The notes: a model not told the origin generated them from the sequence alone. DNA of 59,086 nt from Bacteroidetes bacterium HGW-Bacteroidetes-14 (GCA_002842655.1 PHDP01000002.1:1-59086), one strand, 5' to 3'. Shown: positions 6,274-25,250, counted from the stretch's first letter. Made by a program: numbers and translations.

Positions 6274-8208
6274 ATGGCCTACTTACAATTTAACAAAGAG
6301 GAGCTGGTAAACCTGGAATATTCCCTAAAACGGGAATTTCTATCTACCAATCATGCAGGTGGTTATATGAATACCACCATTGTCTGCTGCAATACCAGGA
6401 AATACCACGGACTGCTTGTTCTTCCCGTTTCTGCATTCAACAATGAGAAATTCGTACTGCTTTCATCACTGGACGAGACACTGGTCCAGCACGACAAGTC
6501 ATTCAACCTTGGTATTCACCGTTACGGTGACATGTATGAGCCAAGAGGGCACAAGTATATCAGAGACTTTGAGATAGATAAATGTGTATCCATTACCTAC
6601 AGGGTAGGCGGAATGGTTTTCCGCAAGGAGATGATGCTCAGCCACAGCGCAGAGCAGTTTTTCGTAAGGTACACGCTTCTGGAGGCAAACTCACCAACCA
6701 TTCTGAGGCTTAAGCCATTTTTGGCCTTCAGACATATCCACACACTCTCAAAGGTCAACATGGATGCCGACACATCCTCAAAAGAGATACCCGGGGGAAG
6801 GGCATTCCGCCTTTACGGAGGATTCCCGGACCTGAATCTTCAGATCTCTTGCAAATCTGAATTTATCTCTTCACCCGACTGGTATTACAATATTGAGTAC
6901 AAAGAGGAGCGCAGAAGAGCATACGAATCTGCAGAGGACCTTTTTGTACCGGGCTACTTTGAGATGCCAGTCAAAAAGGGTCAGCAGATTCTGTTCTCGG
7001 CTTCAACATCAGTCGAAAAACCGGCTGCCCTTAAGAGTAAATTTGAAAAATACATATCTCTGAGGAGCAGCAGAGACAGTTTTGAAAGCTGCCTCCGCAT
7101 AGCTGCAAAACAATTCATAATTAACATTGACGGAAAGACCAGTATATATGCCGGATATCCATGGCTGGACAGAAGCCCGCGCGAGACTCTTCTTGCTGCG
7201 CCTGGGCTCACTCTTTACGCAAATGAAGATAAAAAGAGGTTTAAAGAGATTATAGACTCACTGATTGAGAGGGAGGGCAGAGTACCTTCAGGCAACGGCA
7301 CAAGACCAGATGTGCCTCTGTGGCTTTTCTGGGCGCTTCAGCATTACGCCATCTTCACAGGCAGTAAAAAACAAGTTTGGAAAGAGTATGGTCCGCTTTT
7401 AAAGGATATTCTTGAACACTACAGGGATAAACGACCGGAATCTACAATTAAGCTACATGATAACGGTCTTTTGTGGGCAGAAAAACGAGGTGCCCCTCTG
7501 AGCTGGATGGATGCCATGGCGGCTGGTGTACCGGTTACAGAGAGGGAGGGTTACCAGGTGGAGCTAAACTCTCTTTGGTATAATGCAATCTGTTTTGCTC
7601 TGTCCATGTCTGCAGCCGCTTCTGAAAAGAGTTTCAGAGAAGAGTGGGAACCTGTTAAAAGGAATATAGAGAAATATTTCAACATGGCCTTCTGGATAGA
7701 AAACGGAAACTATCTTGCAGATTTCGTTGGCCACGAGGGGCAGAATAAATGCGTGAGACCCAATCAGCTCTTCACCTGCTCTTTCGAGTACTCTCCACTG
7801 AGCGACGAACAGAAGTCAATGGTACTCCACAAGGTAAAACAGGAGCTTCTGACAGACAGGGGAGTCAGGACCCTCTCCCCGCAGAGCCCTCAATACAAAA
7901 GCGAGTATGACGGTGATGAATTCTCAAGAAACAGTGCCTACCATCAGGGTACAACAAGGCCATGGCTTCTTGGATTCTACATTGACGCAAACCTTAAACT
8001 TTACGGAGAGGCTTTTATAAATAAGGCAAAAGAACTTCTCTCTGCCTTTGAGGAGGACATTGAGATTCACTGCATAGGATCAATTTCTGAGGTTTATGAC
8101 GGAGACCCTCCTCATCTTCCTCACGGGTGTACTTCAAACTCAATAAGTGTTGCCTCTTTCTTGTGGGCTATGAAGGAGATTGCTGGATTCAAAAAGGAGA
8201 AACCATGA
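6274..8208 (+). CDS. Glycogen debranching enzyme (GDE/amylo-alpha-1,6-glucosidase family)
   Basis: N-terminal STNHAGGYMNTTIVCCNTRKYHGLLV; DGKTSIYAGYPWLDRSPRETLLAAPGL. Confidence 0.88.
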   Translation: MAYLQFNKEELVNLEYSLKREFLSTNHAGGYMNTTIVCCNTRKYHGLLVLPVSAFNNEKFVLLSSLDETLVQHDKSFNLGIHRYGDMYEPRGHKYIRDFEIDKCVSITYRVGGMVFRKEMMLSHSAEQFFVRYTLLEANSPTILRLKPFLAFRHIHTLSKVNMDADTSSKEIPGGRAFRLYGGFPDLNLQISCKSEFISSPDWYYNIEYKEERRRAYESAEDLFVPGYFEMPVKKGQQILFSASTSVEKPAALKSKFEKYISLRSSRDSFESCLRIAAKQFIINIDGKTSIYAGYPWLDRSPRETLLAAPGLTLYANEDKKRFKEIIDSLIEREGRVPSGNGTRPDVPLWLFWALQHYAIFTGSKKQVWKEYGPLLKDILEHYRDKRPESTIKLHDNGLLWAEKRGAPLSWMDAMAAGVPVTEREGYQVELNSLWYNAICFALSMSAAASEKSFREEWEPVKRNIEKYFNMAFWIENGNYLADFVGHEGQNKCVRPNQLFTCSFEYSPLSDEQKSMVLHKVKQELLTDRGVRTLSPQSPQYKSEYDGDEFSRNSAYHQGTTRPWLLGFYIDANLKLYGEAFINKAKELLSAFEEDIEIHCIGSISEVYDGDPPHLPHGCTSNSISVASFLWAMKEIAGFKKEKP

Positions 8209-18531: not shown

Positions 18532-19239
18532 TTAAGGAATCTGTAAAAGAGACCTTTTAGAAATTCCGGCAATGAAATCTTTAAGATAAAAGGGTTCGAA
18601 GTATGCAACATCTGCAAATTCGGCCCTTTTGTATTTTTCCAGAGCAGACTGCAGCATTCCCCTTGCTGTGGCATCTGCAATTCTGAAAACGGCATTTTCA
18701 TGCTTGATTACCTCCTGAGTCTTCATGGCTCCATCTCCTGTAAAAATTACGGGACCATTTGCCAGCAACTCAGAGAAACTCTCCTCTGTAAGTATATGCG
18801 CCTCTGTCCGGGCAAGCTGTTTGCACTCCCTGTCATAAACCGCGGCATAAACCTCCATTCTGCGTGCATCAATCATTGGTACGACTGAAAGGTTTCCATC
18901 AGGAATATCTCCCTCTGTAAGGCAAAGCCTGGCAAGAAGTTCAAGAGAACTCACCGCTATAAGCGGAATTCCTGCCCCGTAGCATATCCCTTTTGCAATT
19001 GAAACACCAACCCTCAGACCGGTGTATGAACCGGGACCTTCACTTACAACAACGGCATCGCACTCCTTAACGGAAGAAGAGGCCTCCGCAAGGACCTCTT
19101 CTATGAATGTTGATATAACCCTTGCGTGAGCCTTGTGCTCCTTAATCTCTCTCTCTGCAATTATTACATTGCCCCTGCCCAGTGCAACCGAGCACACCTC
19201 GGTGCTGGTTTCAATGAGCAATAACTGTGGTTTTTGCAT
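18532..19239 (-). CDS. tsaB: tRNA threonylcarbamoyladenosine biosynthesis protein TsaB
   Basis: LLIETSTEVCSVAL; VSEGPGSYTGLRVGVSIAKGICYG. Confidence 0.92.
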   Translation of the reverse strand: MQKPQLLLIETSTEVCSVALGRGNVIIAEREIKEHKAHARVISTFIEEVLAEASSSVKECDAVVVSEGPGSYTGLRVGVSIAKGICYGAGIPLIAVSSLELLARLCLTEGDIPDGNLSVVPMIDARRMEVYAAVYDRECKQLARTEAHILTEESFSELLANGPVIFTGDGAMKTQEVIKHENAVFRIADATARGMLQSALEKYKRAEFADVAYFEPFYLKDFIAGISKRSLLQIP

Positions 19240-19248
19240 TTTATTTTT

Positions 19249-20514
19249 CTATTTCTCCTCTGTCACCTTTTTAGTCTCTCCCTTTTTCTTATCCTCCTTT
19301 CCCCAGGTTACTTTGGAATCTGCCTTAAGGGTCTTGCTGATAGCTGAATAAGGGCCGGTTACAATTCTCTCGCCCTCTTTAAGACCGGTAAGAACCTCAA
19401 TGTTTGTGATATCCTGAATACCTGTGGTTATTACCCTTACCTCAAGTGTGTTATCTTCCTTAACAACAAATACCTGTTCTGCCACAACATCATTTTTCTT
19501 GTTTGTTGTATCTTTTGACAGATCAGATCTGGTAGTGATAGTCTGAACGGGGATTGAAATGATGTCTGCTCTTTTCTCAGTCTGGATAGAGGCAGTTGCC
19601 GACATACCTGGACGGAAAGGATTAACACCCTTTTCCAGCAAATCTGAATATGATTCCGGAAGAATCAAAATCTTAACCTCAAAATTTGTTACCTGCTCAA
19701 GGGATGAACCGATATTTTTTGCAGAATTTGCAATCTGGGTAACAACTCCGGTGAATTTTCTGTCCGGATAGGCATCAACTTCAATGGAAGCAGTATCGTT
19801 GTCCTTTATACGAATGATATCATTTTCGTTTACATCTACAAGCACCTCCATCTGATCGAAGTTGGCGATTCTGAGGAGTTCGGTTCCCGCCATCTGGCTT
19901 GTTCCAACAACGCGTTCACCCTTCTCTACACTAAGCTTGGAGATTGTACCGTCCATAGGAGCGTAGATAGTGGTTTTAGTCAGGTTTTCCTGAGCCTCTT
20001 TAAGTGCAGCTGTAGAGCTTTTAACATTAAACTCGGCAGCCTTGATCTGCTCTTTGGCAACATTGTACTGCGAGAGAGCAGTTTCATAATCTGCCTCAGA
20101 AATTGCTTTCTGCTCAAACAGGCTCTTGCTTCTGTTGTAAGATTGCTCAATCTGTCTGAACTGAGCTGTAAGCTGTGTGAGCTGAGCCTTTACTGAATTA
20201 AGGGATGCCTCTGCACGGTCACGCATCGAAAGATAGACATCCTGCTTAATTTTTATAATAAGTTCGCCTCTTTTTATTTTGTCTCCCTCCTTGAAATTAA
20301 GTTCAATAATTTCGCCGGATACATCCGGAGATATCTTGACCTCTACAACGGGTTTGATTTTTCCGTTGGCAGGAATAACCTCTGTTATGGTTCCTTTGGC
20401 AACAACCTGGGTTGTAACCTCAATAGCCTTGTTTTTGTTGCCCTGCCCAAAAATCACAAGTACAACTATAAGAACAACCGCTGCGGCGATAATCCATTTA
20501 AAACTCTTTTTCAT
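19249..20514 (-). CDS. Periplasmic membrane-fusion adaptor (MacA/HlyD-type)
   Basis: N-terminal TM; GKIKPVVEVKISPDVSGEIIELNFKEGDKIKRGELI biotinyl-lipoyl-like segment; APMDGTISKLSVEKGERV. Confidence 0.88.
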   Translation of the reverse strand: MKKSFKWIIAAAVVLIVVLVIFGQGNKNKAIEVTTQVVAKGTITEVIPANGKIKPVVEVKISPDVSGEIIELNFKEGDKIKRGELIIKIKQDVYLSMRDRAEASLNSVKAQLTQLTAQFRQIEQSYNRSKSLFEQKAISEADYETALSQYNVAKEQIKAAEFNVKSSTAALKEAQENLTKTTIYAPMDGTISKLSVEKGERVVGTSQMAGTELLRIANFDQMEVLVDVNENDIIRIKDNDTASIEVDAYPDRKFTGVVTQIANSAKNIGSSLEQVTNFEVKILILPESYSDLLEKGVNPFRPGMSATASIQTEKRADIISIPVQTITTRSDLSKDTTNKKNDVVAEQVFVVKEDNTLEVRVITTGIQDITNIEVLTGLKEGERIVTGPYSAISKTLKADSKVTWGKEDKKKGETKKVTEEK

Positions 20515-20543
20515 ATTATTGCGGATGGTATTGTTATCTGAAT

Positions 20544-21869
20544 TTATAGTGAAACCGGTTTTCCTTTGTAGAAATCAAGGATCTTCTGCTGGAAAATAAA
20601 CTGGTATTTAGCCTGGTAAAAATCTGACTGGCTTTTGAACAGATTGTTCTTGGCAACAGTATAGTCTGTGGCATTAAGAACACCCAGATCAAATTTTTGT
20701 TGAACATATCTGAAAGACTCCTCCATAGCTTTCACATTTCTCTCAGTTGCCTTGTAACGGGCAAAATATGAATGAGCATCATTTACAGCCTGCTGAATAT
20801 CTTTATAAAGAATCTGTTCGCGGTTCTTTACATCAATTTCTGAACTTCTTACTCCAAGTTTAGCATTTTTGATGTTAGTGTTAGTTCTCCACGAATTAAA
20901 GATTGGGATATTAACGCTGAATGAAACGGAAGGATTCCTGTTTTCGTTGAACTGATCCATGAATGACTCTTCGCGGCTGTCTGCATAATAAGAGCCGTAG
21001 CCTGCCCTGAATGAGAGAGACGGGTAAGCCTGGCCTTTAGCAATGGCTAGCTGAAGGTTTGAATTGTCAAGATTCAGTTTTGCTCCCTTAATCTGAGGCA
21101 GAGTGAGCGAACTGTTGAATAGTTCATCTACAGACTCATCTTTGAACTCTCCTGCAATTGCAAGATTTTCTGAAGGCATTGCAATATCAAATGAACTCTC
21201 TGATGTAAGATCAAGAAGTTGTCTGAGAGATAGCAATGCACTGTTTACCTGATTCTGGGCATTGGTAAACTGTACCTGTTCAGAAGCGTACTGAGCCTCA
21301 ATTTCCAGTAATGAACTGTATGCCTGTCCTCCCGCATCAACAAATTTCCTTGTGCGGTCTACCTGCTCCTTTGTACTCTCCATGCTTGCACGGGCAGAAT
21401 TCAGAATCTCCCTTGAAAGAAGAACCTGTAAATATCCCCTTGCAATTTCTATAGAGATATCGTTCCTGAGCCGGCTTATCTCCTGACGGGCAATTTCCCT
21501 TTTAACGCCCATGTTCTTTAGATTATTGTTCTTTACCATACCCTCGAAAAGTGTCACAGATGCACTCGCATTTGCACTGGTGCTCTGGCTCAGCTTGTTT
21601 TCGATAATCTGGAGATCGTTCATGTTCACGGAGCGGCCCCAGTTCATACTGTGACTCACAGAGGCGTTCAGCGAAGGCAGATAACCTAGCTTAGCCTGGA
21701 GCAAGTTGTTTTCACTCTGCTCTATGGCAAGCTCTTGTTGCTTGATTCTTAGATTGTTATCCCATGCATAACGTATGCACTCCTCGAGGCTCCAGAGCTT
21801 AGTCTGAGCAGAGAGAACTGTGGGGATAAAAATGAGAATAAATACGGGGAGTATTAATAATCTTTTCAT
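20544..21869 (-). CDS. TolC family outer membrane channel
   Basis: Signal peptide MKRLLILPVFILIFIPTVLSAQ; LEECIRYAWDNNLRIKQQEL; start moved to ATG 21869. Confidence 0.88.
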   Translation of the reverse strand: MKRLLILPVFILIFIPTVLSAQTKLWSLEECIRYAWDNNLRIKQQELAIEQSENNLLQAKLGYLPSLNASVSHSMNWGRSVNMNDLQIIENKLSQSTSANASASVTLFEGMVKNNNLKNMGVKREIARQEISRLRNDISIEIARGYLQVLLSREILNSARASMESTKEQVDRTRKFVDAGGQAYSSLLEIEAQYASEQVQFTNAQNQVNSALLSLRQLLDLTSESSFDIAMPSENLAIAGEFKDESVDELFNSSLTLPQIKGAKLNLDNSNLQLAIAKGQAYPSLSFRAGYGSYYADSREESFMDQFNENRNPSVSFSVNIPIFNSWRTNTNIKNAKLGVRSSEIDVKNREQILYKDIQQAVNDAHSYFARYKATERNVKAMEESFRYVQQKFDLGVLNATDYTVAKNNLFKSQSDFYQAKYQFIFQQKILDFYKGKPVSL

Positions 21870-21936
21870 AAGCGACAAAGGTAAAATTATTTTTTTCAAA
21901 AACTCCCCGTAAAATAAAGATTTTACAGGCATTTGC

Positions 21937-22152
21937 CTATTTGTAGATAACCTGTGTCTGCCCCTGCAGATTGTAGAGATTTGAGCTCAGGAACTGAAAG
22001 GCTCTCCAGAGCTTTTTTACTCCGTATCCGACGCCCATTCCAACATATGTTGCAACCTGTCTGTCCCAGTCTCCGGCGCCTCCTCTGGAGGCAATACATT
22101 CGGCTTCGTTAAGCATAACAAGACCGCACTCCTGAATGTTAAACTTTTTCAT
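21937..22152 (-). CDS. Small double-glycine-leader peptide B (putative bacteriocin/signal precursor, 71 aa)
   Basis: MKKFNIQECGLVMLNEAECIASRGG / AGDWDRQVATYVGMGVGYGVKKLWRAFQFLSSNLYNLQGQTQVIYK; start at ATG 22150..22152 overlaps the TAA of peptide A (TAATG); lies in an operon with a C39 exporter. Confidence 0.72.
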   Translation of the reverse strand: MKKFNIQECGLVMLNEAECIASRGGAGDWDRQVATYVGMGVGYGVKKLWRAFQFLSSNLYNLQGQTQVIYK

Positions 22153-22340
22153 TATGCAGCCTCCCATCCCTTTTTGAATCCGTCCCTGAAGTTAGGCCAG
22201 TACTTTTCGGCCTTTTCCAGAAGTTCAAGTGCGACTCCGATTATCTCGGCAAGCTTCTTTAACTTGCTTCCACCATGAACAAGAAGATCTCTCTCTTCCA
22301 GGGGTTTCAGTCCCCATCCTTCAAACACATCACTTTTCAT
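22152..22340 (-). CDS. Small double-glycine-leader peptide A (putative bacteriocin/signal precursor, 62 aa)
   Basis: MKSDVFEGWGLKPLEERDLLVHGG / SKLKKLAEIIGVALELLEKAEKYWPNFRDGFKKGWEAA; amphipathic-helix-like core; 69 nt downstream of the PCAT stop. Confidence 0.72.
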   Translation of the reverse strand: MKSDVFEGWGLKPLEERDLLVHGGSKLKKLAEIIGVALELLEKAEKYWPNFRDGFKKGWEAA

Positions 22341-22409
22341 AGCTTTGATGAATTAATTTTCCCTGCAAAATGGCGTGCAGAGTTCGCCCGGGTGTGTACT
22401 TTACCCTAT

Positions 22410-24470
22410 TTATATACTGTAGATTCTGTCCGCTATAGTTCTGTTCCTCTCTTTATGGGAGATGAGAATTACAATTTTTCCCCGGCTCTTTTCCCGGATA
22501 ACCGCTTTCTCAATCAGAGCCTCTGACTCGCCGTCCAGGGAAGAGGTTGCCTCATCAAGCACAAGGATTGAAGATTCTCTGTATAGAGCCCTTGCCACTG
22601 CAATTCTCTGCTGTTGCCCTCTTGACAGAGAGGAGCCACCTTCACCCGCTCTTGATTCAAATCCCATTGGCATTGACTGAAGAAATCCAAGGATTCCCAG
22701 ATCGCTGCAGATTTCCACTATCCTGCCCAGATCCGGCTCCTCCTCTCCCGGAGCTATGTTCTCTGTAATTGTTCCGTCAAAGAGACCCGGGCTCTGAGGA
22801 ACAACTGCTATCAAGCCTCTCCAGCTCCTCAGGTTTATGTGAGATATATTAACACCGTCTGCAGTAATCATACCTCCTGTCGGGATCCGCATTCTTGTTA
22901 TAAGGGAGACTACCGTGCTCTTTCCGGAGCCGCTCTCTCCCGTGATTGCAGTTATCTCTCCGCGCCGGAAACTGAGATTGAGGTTTTTAAGCACGGTTGC
23001 CCTGCCCGGATAGGAGAAGCAGACATTTTCAAAGTTTATGGACTCGGGCGCTTCTGTTCCGGCAGTTACTCCGGTGTCGAGCGGCTCCGCCTCAAGATCC
23101 ATTATTTCGAAGACCCGGCCGGCCGCTACCGTTCCTTCGCGGAGTGAAGAGCTTGATGTTACTATTTCTGCCAAAGGGGAGGTGAAGAGAGAGATAAGTG
23201 TAAAAAATGATATGAGATCACCCGGCGTAAGTGTACCGGCAATCATCTCTCTCCCGCCTGCCCAAAGGACAAAAACTGTGAAAATTTTTGATATAAAGTC
23301 TGCAAGCCCGCCGGTAAATGCTGCTGTTTTTCCCGACTTAACCAGCATTGATCCCAGTCCGTTAAGAGCCGCCGTGCTTTTTCCGGCAAAATATTGCTCC
23401 GCTCCGGAGTGTTTTAGTGTTGCATAGGAGCGGATGGTTTCAATGAGTGAACTTTCGAACCTTGCACCCTGCTCCATTATTTTTCTATGTATCCTTTTAT
23501 TGAACTCGTCAAATATTCTGAAGATGATGTAAAACAGAGGAACAATTGCAACAGCTCTGAGTGCCATTCCCGGAGAGATTGCAAACATAGCTGCTGCAGA
23601 TCCTGCCAGCATTACAGCTGAGACAACCAGCCCCATAAGAGTCTCGGTAATCATGTTTCTGATTTTGAATGCATCTGAGACCCTGGATGTAATCTCTCCG
23701 GTCTCCCTCCCTTCGTAAAAGAGAGCAGGAAGCTGAGTCAGATGCCTTATGTAGTTTCCTATAAGAGAAACATCAATTTTCACACCTGTTCTCACCATTA
23801 TTACGCTTCTGAACCATGAAAGCAAAAATGAAATGCAGAAAACTCCGCACAAAACAGCAGAAACGATTGTGAGATTATCCAGGTTTCCTGACGGGATGAC
23901 CTTATCAAAGATAATTTTCATAAACAGCGAGATTCCAAAGGCTGTCAGCATAAAAAACAGAGAGAGAATCAGGGCTTTTGCAATAGACCTTCTGTTTTCT
24001 GAAATAATCGAAAATAGCCTTCCTGTAATATCGGCAGCCGCATTCTCCCTGCGGAATGTTGCTGCAGGCGAGAGAAGAATCAGCCTTCCGCTCCACTCCT
24101 CAAGAAGTTCTGACATCCTGACTTTATGAATCTCCCCGTCCTGCGGGTCCATGATTTTCAGAAATCCGTTTCTGATCTGGTAAAGTACAACAAAGTGAAG
24201 CAATCCGCTCTTCTTTTCCAGGTGCAGGATTGCCGGTTTGGGTGCCCTGTAGAGAGAGCTCTCGCGTCCGCTGTACCCTGATGCATCAAATCCCATGTTT
24301 TTTGCTGCATCTACAAGTCCTTTAATAGTTGTTCCCTTTCTGTCTGTGTTACTCATAAGCCTTATTCTGGCCAGAGGCATTTTTAGCCCCCAGAAGGCCG
24401 AAACAGAAGCGAGGCAGGCTACCCCGCAGTCGCTCATATCATGTTGTCTGATTTTTACAGAATAACCCAT
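22410..24470 (-). CDS. Peptidase-containing ABC transporter (C39 peptidase + ABC membrane + ATPase; PCAT)
   Basis: N-terminal C39: IRQHDMSDCGVACLASVSAFWG with LLHFVVLYQ...IMDPQDG (Cys/His/Asp); Walker A GESGSGKST, LSRGQQQR, ILVLDEATSSLD. Start preferred at ATG 24470 after GGAGGAGAGGTG. Confidence 0.93.
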   Translation of the reverse strand: MGYSVKIRQHDMSDCGVACLASVSAFWGLKMPLARIRLMSNTDRKGTTIKGLVDAAKNMGFDASGYSGRESSLYRAPKPAILHLEKKSGLLHFVVLYQIRNGFLKIMDPQDGEIHKVRMSELLEEWSGRLILLSPAATFRRENAAADITGRLFSIISENRRSIAKALILSLFFMLTAFGISLFMKIIFDKVIPSGNLDNLTIVSAVLCGVFCISFLLSWFRSVIMVRTGVKIDVSLIGNYIRHLTQLPALFYEGRETGEITSRVSDAFKIRNMITETLMGLVVSAVMLAGSAAAMFAISPGMALRAVAIVPLFYIIFRIFDEFNKRIHRKIMEQGARFESSLIETIRSYATLKHSGAEQYFAGKSTAALNGLGSMLVKSGKTAAFTGGLADFISKIFTVFVLWAGGREMIAGTLTPGDLISFFTLISLFTSPLAEIVTSSSSLREGTVAAGRVFEIMDLEAEPLDTGVTAGTEAPESINFENVCFSYPGRATVLKNLNLSFRRGEITAITGESGSGKSTVVSLITRMRIPTGGMITADGVNISHINLRSWRGLIAVVPQSPGLFDGTITENIAPGEEEPDLGRIVEICSDLGILGFLQSMPMGFESRAGEGGSSLSRGQQQRIAVARALYRESSILVLDEATSSLDGESEALIEKAVIREKSRGKIVILISHKERNRTIADRIYSI

Positions 24471-24576
24471 CACCTCTCCTCCGTCATTAATTTTTTGAAA
24501 CAGAGCGGGCGGCACTTCATTCACACATTTGTCCCCCTCATGACATCTCAAACACCACGGCCGCCCCTCTGTGATA

Positions 24577-24584
24577 CAAAAGTA
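24577..24584 (-). promoter_or_regulatory. Putative -7 box TACTTTTG for the PCAT-peptide operon
   Basis: Plus strand CAAAAGTA; consensus TAnnTTTG; -33 element weak (TTTG 25 nt upstream instead of 19-21). Confidence 0.4.
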
Positions 24585-24688: not shown

Positions 24689-25183
24689 TCAGGAAACGAG
24701 ATTTTTTAGATATGGAAAAATGGCAGGGGCCACTTTGGAGACAAAAGCATAAAGTCTGGATTTTTCAAGTGTCTCCTTTGGAAGAAATTCAAATAAATTA
24801 TCGAGTGAATTGAGCAAATAGATGATTACGCTAATAATAAACGCATATTTGATTATTGCGAAAACTACTCCCAGAAGTTTGTCAAGCCATCCCAGAAGGG
24901 CGAGTTTGAATGCTCCTGCAATAAGTTTTCCTGCAAGATTTACTAATATGAGAACCCCAATGAAAATGATTGCAAATGAGATGATATTGAGCCATTGAGG
25001 GTCTGTGTGAATCCACACCTTGATTTTGTCGCTCAGCAGGGCAGAAAAGTGATAGCCTCCCCAGATTCCAAGTACAAGTGCGGCAACTCCGGCTGCCTGT
25101 CTTATGAAACCCTTCATTAATCCGCCAATTACGGCAGGGATGAAACAGAGGAGAATGATTATATCTGCAGGATTGAGCGACAT
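24689..25183 (-). CDS. cvpA: CvpA family (colicin V production) membrane protein
   Basis: MSLNPADIIILLCFIPAVIGGLMKGFIRQAAGVAALVLGIWGGYHFS; start moved to ATG 25183. Confidence 0.85.
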   Translation of the reverse strand: MSLNPADIIILLCFIPAVIGGLMKGFIRQAAGVAALVLGIWGGYHFSALLSDKIKVWIHTDPQWLNIISFAIIFIGVLILVNLAGKLIAGAFKLALLGWLDKLLGVVFAIIKYAFIISVIIYLLNSLDNLFEFLPKETLEKSRLYAFVSKVAPAIFPYLKNLVS

Positions 25184-25200
25184 AGGTAATCTATTTTTTT

Positions 25201-25231
25201 CAAAAGTAGTGAATAATCGTATCTTTGCAAA
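25201..25231 (-). promoter_or_regulatory. Promoter for cvpA: TTTG-N19-TACTTTTG
   Basis: Plus-strand CAAAAGTA 25201..25208 and CAAA 25228..25231, exact N19 spacing. Confidence 0.6.
25220..25227 (+). promoter_or_regulatory. -7 box TATCTTTG for ileS
   Basis: TAnnTTTG, 23 nt upstream of ileS ATG, inside the cvpA promoter on the other strand. Confidence 0.55.
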
Positions 25232-25250
25232 TTCAAAAAGCGAAATAAAA

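Follow-up and report, generated by a model that had tools for sequence, protein, structure and literature searches.

Organization of the locus

The stretch of DNA considered here (the window; 59,086 nucleotides, PHDP01000002.1:1-59086) comes from the genome assembly of Bacteroidetes bacterium HGW-Bacteroidetes-14, which is 83% complete, and contains on its minus strand a cluster of genes that includes a peptidase-containing ATP-binding cassette (ABC) transporter (PCAT) and two small peptide genes, designated here pepA and pepB. The order of transcription is PCAT, pepA, pepB, a TolC-family channel gene, an adaptor gene and tsaB (Table 1), as an earlier note drawn from the sequence had proposed, and both the coordinates and the matches to Pfam and NCBIfam families bear this out. 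Comparative analysis of the locus indicates two coding genes that co-occur with the exporter, double-glycine (GG) leaders on both products, a conserved C39 peptidase site, paired GxxxG motifs, probable translational coupling, a covarying RNA between PCAT and pepA, and vertical inheritance of the whole.

Table 1. Features of the locus in window coordinates, with the evidence that identifies them
Feature	Position	Strand	Evidence
PCAT (C39 peptidase and ABC exporter, about 686 aa)	22410..24470	minus	ATG at 24470; Pfam C39 and ABC domains
Structured RNA between PCAT and pepA	22361..22406	minus	Covariation; shuffle and swap controls
pepA, 62 aa	22152..22340	minus	Conservation, co-occurrence, dN/dS, GxxxG
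pepB, 71 aa	21937..22152	minus	Conservation, dN/dS, leader pattern
TolC-family outer-membrane channel	20544..about 21869	minus	Pfam OEP 5.9e-52; order-wide gene
Periplasmic adaptor, RND/MacA type	19249..20514	minus	TIGR01730; tsaB neighbour order-wide
tsaB, housekeeping neighbour outside the export function	18532..19239	minus	TIGR03725, 166.8 bits (NCBIfam equivalog)
CvpA-family membrane protein, flanking upstream gene	24689..25183	minus	Pfam Colicin_V 4.8e-30

The two peptides and their coding evidence

The pepA product consists of a 24-residue GG leader and a 38-residue core (SKLKKLAEII...GFKKGWEAA) carrying GxxxG, while the pepB product has a 25-residue GG leader and a 46-residue core (AGDWDRQVAT...VIYK) carrying GMGVGYG. 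Proteins of 62 and 71 residues are not below the usual size cut-offs of gene callers. In a search of Pfam and NCBIfam, neither peptide matched any family. The earlier note had allowed that the substitution pattern of these reading frames might prove to be non-coding; it is a coding pattern, in which synonymous change far exceeds replacement change (pooled pN and pS of 0.060 and 0.337 for pepA, and of 0.075 and 0.469 for pepB). Pairwise dN/dS values fall between 0.03 and 0.16 for pepA and between 0.03 and 0.18 for pepB, and both are genuine coding genes under purifying selection.

The leaders read as the earlier note quoted them, and the GG is retained in 36/36 sequences of each peptide. Both belong to the GG-leader type, which is described as 15–30 residues ending in GG, with hydrophobic residues at about −4, −7 and −12 and an acidic residue at −8. 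Among the 36 relatives, the PepB leader has L at −12 in 24, E at −8 in 28 and I or V at −4 in 30, whereas the PepA leader is a shifted version of the pattern, with E at −7 in 24 of 36. The cores that follow are 28–51 residues long in PepA and 31–47 in PepB. Every one of the 36 PepA cores contains GxxxG (shuffled mean 6.8, maximum 14), a count that, like the others given here, is made over kin sequences that are not independent, most of those from other genera being ~20–30% identical to the window peptides. Since GxxxG is found in 33/36 PepB cores and AxxxG in the remaining three, the broader motif [GA]xxxG is present in all 36 (shuffled mean 18.8, maximum 28). In an alignment of 31 PepA sequences, no column is invariant apart from those of the initial Met, the GG of the leader and both GxxxG glycines.

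Structure prediction was performed on single sequences only. AlphaFold, run without an alignment, gave confident helices for PepA at residues 26–47 and 51–61 (pLDDT about 92 over residues 31–60) and, with low confidence (60.8), one helix for PepB at residues 26–69. The two genes overlap by one base, the pepA stop and the pepB start sharing the sequence TAATG. This overlap, as TAATG or TGATG, occurs in 19 of 20 relatives within the genus, and in the twentieth (L159) as well if its second ATG is taken as the start. pepA and pepB are accordingly laid out as genes predicted to be translationally coupled in the genus, and PepA and PepB appear to form a matched pair.

Distribution and linkage to the exporter

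A pepA profile found 160 of 300 genomes of the family, including all 25 of the genus to which the window belongs, and, at E 0.01, extended to 13 of the family's 26 genera, with a marginal match in one; profile E-values in single genomes go as low as 1e-28. pepB was found beside pepA in the identical 39 of 60 family genomes, and none of the 25 genomes of the genus lacks either peptide. In a 295-genome sample of the order, just two weak pepA matches fell outside the family (L204, L205), neither of which is a GG peptide beside a PCAT. The order CvpA-PCAT-pepA-pepB-TolC-adaptor-tsaB is unchanged in every same-genus genome whose contigs permit it to be read. A PCAT occupies the same position, hereafter the slot, in 14 family genomes from other genera and in Bacteroidales bacterium RGIG4631 from roe deer rectum (L035), each with two diverged GG peptides and with the order kept. 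L035 was the sole syntenic relative among the loci obtained from a contig scan with PCAT patterns, which were too generic for the purpose. The link between peptides and PCAT that the earlier note suggested checking by profile search is confirmed, limited to one family: both peptides co-occur one-to-one with the slot PCAT in a single, gut-type family of Bacteroidales.

One locus of this set has an unusual gene content. In L123 (genome G045), a further reading frame of 251 aa with hydrophobic stretches (7089-7844) lies between pepB and TolC, where the other loci have no such frame; it is possibly an immunity or accessory gene.

A pseudoknot RNA upstream of pepA

The interval between PCAT and pepA is occupied by a structured RNA element. 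Immediately downstream of the stop codon of PCAT lies a hairpin, P1 (22406-22390), followed by an H-type pseudoknot in which P2 joins 22388-22385 to 22375-22372 (GGCG/CGCC) and P3 joins 22382-22376 to 22367-22361 (CUCUGCA/UGCAGGG). The element ends 20 nt before the pepA ATG. Of the 36 loci inspected, almost every one has a hairpin followed by an H-type pseudoknot; L113, L128 and L035 are ambiguous. P1 is the less regular part, with 66% of cells paired and a loop that is often palindromic. When pseudoknots were searched for freely, the mean score was 27.0, compared with about 9 in dinucleotide shuffles. The 3' strand of P3 was picked by complementarity, which favours pairing, and swap and shuffle tests served as controls. 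Full 6/6 pairing of the 5' strand with the downstream strand of the same locus is seen in 23 of 32 loci, compared with 17% after strands were swapped between loci. In a set of 29 concatenated helices, from which one duplicate and two loci that aligned poorly were omitted, 8/10 pairs vary on both sides and double-change cells number 53, as opposed to 13.8 (sd 4.9) after shuffling; the signal collapses in slid controls.

A covariance model located one copy of the element per genome, at pepA only, in 25/25 genomes of the genus and in four genomes of other genera, and never found it in a search of genomes that lack the peptides. At the gathering score, the element matched none of the 4227 families of Rfam 15, and, judged by Rfam 15, the covarying pseudoknot RNA has not been described before. 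H-type pseudoknots are found in leader RNAs such as preQ1-I, SAM-II and that of T4 gene 32. The pepA element resembles these leaders in being a short H-type pseudoknot close upstream of a start codon, but differs from them in having no Rfam match and in being confined to this peptide pair. At two loci, short tandem repeats precede the pseudoknot element: between the PCAT stop and the element in L114 (8396-8560; GAGATTATTATGA units), and directly after the PCAT stop in L154.

A second structure lies in the gap between CvpA and PCAT (window 24497-24584, minus strand). There, a TAnnTTTG box (24577-24584) is followed by a bulged hairpin of 75–95 nt that ends in a U-rich run and bears an apical hairpin whose loop is often GGGGCA-like. 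The hairpin recurs in L115, L122, L128, L129 and L153-L172, with stem sequences that vary freely while pairing is kept; it has no Rfam match and is possibly a small RNA or an attenuator. It was rejected as a part of the peptide system because a similar hairpin occurs in L129, which has no PCAT. TAnnTTTG boxes are enriched upstream of PCAT (17 vs 6). A Bacteroidetes promoter at this position was also rejected, a complete −33/−7 match being present in just one locus.

The exporter and the origin of the locus

PCAT combines Peptidase_C39 (E 1.5e-30), ABC_membrane (5e-41) and ABC_tran (1.1e-29) domains in a single chain, which together with the Gln, Cys, His and Asp of the C39 site define the PCAT class. 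The four catalytic residues (Q8, C14, H91 and D107) are unchanging across 17 relatives, in agreement with the earlier note's impression of an intact peptidase. Its closest solved structure is PCAT1 of 4RY2, matched over the full length (E 6e-118), and ComA is also among its solved relatives. A piece of a second C39 protein lies at a contig end of the same genome (C22:3-77, L002), and in related genomes a further PCAT occurs that shares about 27% identity with that of the window. Among six loci examined in which a similar PCAT lies outside the slot, a HlyD-like gene adjoins it in three (L017, L020 and L025).

Slot PCATs are separated from the other PCATs of Bacteroidales by a single branch with 100/100 support. 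Mapped on the tsaB tree, the presence of a slot PCAT requires 2 changes, compared with about 11 for shuffled labels, and several groupings are common to the PCAT and tsaB trees. The PCAT branch and the number of changes on the tsaB tree fit a single insertion and, after it, descent that was largely vertical. Carriage by a mobile element or phage was considered and rejected, in that no viral contig held a pepA relative and plasmid PCATs were at best 39% identical.

The TolC and adaptor genes have a wider distribution. The TolC-adaptor-tsaB block occurs without PCAT in other genera and in other families of the order, and the linkage of the adaptor to tsaB reaches many of these families. In two PCAT-free genomes (L129, L131), the order CvpA-TolC-adaptor was read directly, with the CvpA-family gene adjoining TolC. 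From these two arrangements, it appears that the PCAT-pepA-pepB unit entered upstream of TolC, between CvpA and TolC. The TolC-adaptor-tsaB block is order-wide and predates the PCAT insertion. One family genome (G038, locus L120) keeps PCAT and both peptides, while TolC and the adaptor are absent from the locus.

The adaptor itself belongs with the resistance-nodulation-division (RND) adaptors, scoring 183.9 bits against TIGR01730 (cut-off 94.9), compared with 63.1 against the type I HlyD model TIGR01843, for which 208.65 is needed. It also matches Pfam HlyD_D23 (3.9e-19), and its nearest solved relative is MacA (9QGY, E 8e-27; 5NIK, 2.5e-24). The earlier note described a colicin V-like, complete and self-contained type I secretion locus. 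What stands of this description is an intact GG-cleaving exporter with two co-conserved GG peptides. To call it self-contained and colicin V-like is an overstatement, because the TolC-adaptor-tsaB block is older than PCAT and the adaptor is of the MacA/RND type rather than the CvaA/HlyD type; G038 moreover lacks both genes at the locus, and neither a ColV-like peptide nor an immunity gene is present. Use of this TolC and adaptor by PCAT is nevertheless plausible. The adaptors that adjoin tsaB in a sister PCAT clade (L113, L115, L116, L121, L122, L127 and L128) have very long branches, which suggests changed constraint after the arrival of PCAT.

Two gene starts at the locus deserve comment. 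The TolC reading frame is open from 21932, with a signal peptide right after 21869, which is the likely start. Upstream of PCAT, the first-ATG start of the ileS reading frame (window 25104-25250) overlaps CvpA on the opposite strand; alignments with homologues often begin only at about residue 31–45, and a start close to 25251 is the probable one for IleS.

Comparison with known systems

The class IIb bacteriocins (lactococcin G, plantaricins EF and JK) resemble the pepAB locus in gene arrangement, with two adjacent GG-leader peptides and their own C39 ABC exporter, and in having helical cores, as predicted for PepA and PepB, with a GxxxG-type motif in both peptides, which here exceeds all shuffles. 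Class IIb peptides kill in synergy, at a ratio of about 1:1, by permeabilizing membranes. The locus differs from class IIb in its Gram-negative host, its core, vertically inherited position, its TolC and adaptor genes, and its RNA element. Membership in class IIb was rejected after leads to lactococcin G and plantaricin J proved not to be significant, the top NCBIfam lead being lactococcin G-beta in 1/29 PepB sequences (E 0.009); the sequence match that marks the class is lacking, as is, in the loci inspected, its immunity gene. The Cdz system of Caulobacter is a contact-dependent two-protein bacteriocin with hydrophobic GxxxGxxxG zippers in both proteins and an immunity gene, cdzI (PMC5380434). 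Like pepAB, it is Gram-negative and comprises two small exported proteins with leaders ending in G[G/A/S], GxxxG motifs and adjoining type I secretion genes (PMC5380434). PepA, with its single charged GxxxG, and the loci inspected, at which no immunity gene was seen, depart from the Cdz pattern; class IIb and Cdz systems both have an immunity gene.

Colicin V export by CvaA/CvaB/TolC likewise uses a C39 exporter for GG leaders together with an adaptor and TolC, which in the window are encoded adjacent to the exporter. The window locus differs in that its adaptor is of the MacA/RND type and older than PCAT, rather than a dedicated type I adaptor of the HlyD/CvaA family, and it has neither a ColV-like peptide nor Cvi immunity. 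Bacteroidetocins are single, class IIa-like cysteine peptides, usually encoded with a thiol oxidoreductase, and with a transmembrane protein; no immunity gene is obvious in them, and the producing strains are self-inhibiting (PMC6671954). They share with the window locus a Bacteroidales GG peptide, a C39 transporter and the lack of an obvious immunity gene, but the window cores contain no cysteine, and the thiol oxidoreductase and transmembrane genes are absent. In Synechococcus elongatus, four small GG proteins, EbfG1-4, are exported by the C39 protein PteB and needed for biofilm (PMC4997328). This resembles pepAB in its several small GG proteins and C39 export, with a role for EbfG other than as a toxin; it differs in having four proteins and a cyanobacterial host, and the passages drawn on here report neither a GxxxG pair nor a pseudoknot RNA (PMC4997328). 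A literature search, mainly of open-access papers, found no comparable GG system with two peptides in Bacteroidales. The best reading is that the system works like two-peptide bacteriocin export, yet falls outside both class IIb and Cdz, because it lacks defining features (immunity gene, sequence family, CvaA-type adaptor).

Proposed function and alternatives

A core, vertically inherited two-peptide export system, whose cores pair at the membrane and act in a bacteriocin-like manner, with synthesis set by the RNA, is proposed with about even confidence. PCAT would cut off both GG leaders and move the PepA and PepB cores across the inner membrane, and the adjacent, older TolC-adaptor pair would most likely carry them on through the outer membrane. 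These cores, of about 38 and 46 residues and predicted to be helical, may be produced in step through translational coupling and act jointly, their GxxxG/AxxxG faces docking helix to helix in or at the membrane. The likeliest effect would be bacteriocin-like action, perhaps killing, on neighbouring and probably related cells. The pseudoknot RNA may set peptide synthesis relative to that of the exporter. Several observations weigh against this proposal. Bacteriocins are usually patchy in distribution, and universal retention under strong purifying selection is unusual for them. In the loci inspected, the interval from PCAT to TolC contained neither an immunity gene nor any further conserved reading frame, which, with the core-like conservation, argues against antagonism, although bacteroidetocins likewise lack an obvious immunity gene. 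Matches to the lactococcin G models (E 0.009–0.08) and to plantaricin J (E 1.2) are not significant, and the charged residues in the PepA motif (GFKKG) make it less zipper-like than Cdz. Finally, the MacA-type adaptor may serve another pump, the same genome having 7 MacB-type matches.

That last point leads to a different arrangement, in which TolC and the adaptor serve a separate MacB-type pump encoded elsewhere, while PCAT delivers to the periplasm only or uses another adaptor. We consider this a substantial possibility, short of probable. It would explain the order-wide TolC-adaptor-tsaB block without PCAT, the type of the adaptor, the gene content of G038 and the HlyD-like gene beside three of the six similar PCATs examined outside the slot; the synteny from PCAT through the adaptor in every readable same-genus genome, and the long adaptor branches in the sister clade, suggestive of adjustment to a new partner, speak for a shared function. 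This arrangement is compatible with antagonism, signalling or a surface role. A broader departure from the proposal, held only tentatively and with rather more doubt than belief, is that the immunity-less core pair does not kill but serves a housekeeping or communal function (self/kin signalling or surface assembly), controlled by a pseudoknot riboregulator that is of a new class and dedicated to the pair.

Two specific forms of non-toxic function can be distinguished. PepA and PepB might constitute a two-part pheromone read by the same species, with PCAT as a ComA-type exporter. Vertical inheritance, single copy, strong purifying selection and the lack of an immunity gene agree with such a role, as does the presence of ComA among the solved relatives of PCAT, and a dedicated, probably regulatory RNA would suit a controlled signal. 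The conserved neighbourhood, however, contains no sensor kinase or regulator gene, typical pheromones are shorter and less membrane-like than these cores of 38–46 residues with their invariant GxxxG, and two coupled peptides are unusual for signals, so that we regard a pheromone as unlikely. Also improbable, in our estimation, is that the peptides remain on the producer's surface or in its matrix for adhesion or biofilm, like EbfG1-4/PteB. Core conservation without immunity fits this role, GG/C39-exported small proteins needed for biofilm provide a precedent (PMC4997328), and GxxxG can drive assembly, as in the surface-held CdzC/D (PMC5380434); yet the cores are short, helical and amphipathic, and the locus has no other matrix gene. 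That the small reading frames arose by chance or are remnants, the RNA structure being the sole conserved feature, can be dismissed almost entirely: they are short and without family matches, but dN/dS values of 0.03–0.18, profile E-values down to 1e-28 in single genomes and, across more than 10 genera, a GG that never varies and a GxxxG that hardly does rule it out.

Significance

Peptides with GG leaders that leave the cell through C39 transporters are generally regarded as scattered bacteriocins or pheromones. Here, a pair of them is fixed at one chromosomal site over about a dozen genera of a single Bacteroidales family. The absence of the peptides from Pfam and NCBIfam, and of the RNA from Rfam, marks them as obvious candidates for families of their own. 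Their conservation raises the questions of what purpose an immunity-less, core two-peptide system serves in Gram-negative bacteria and what the RNA senses.

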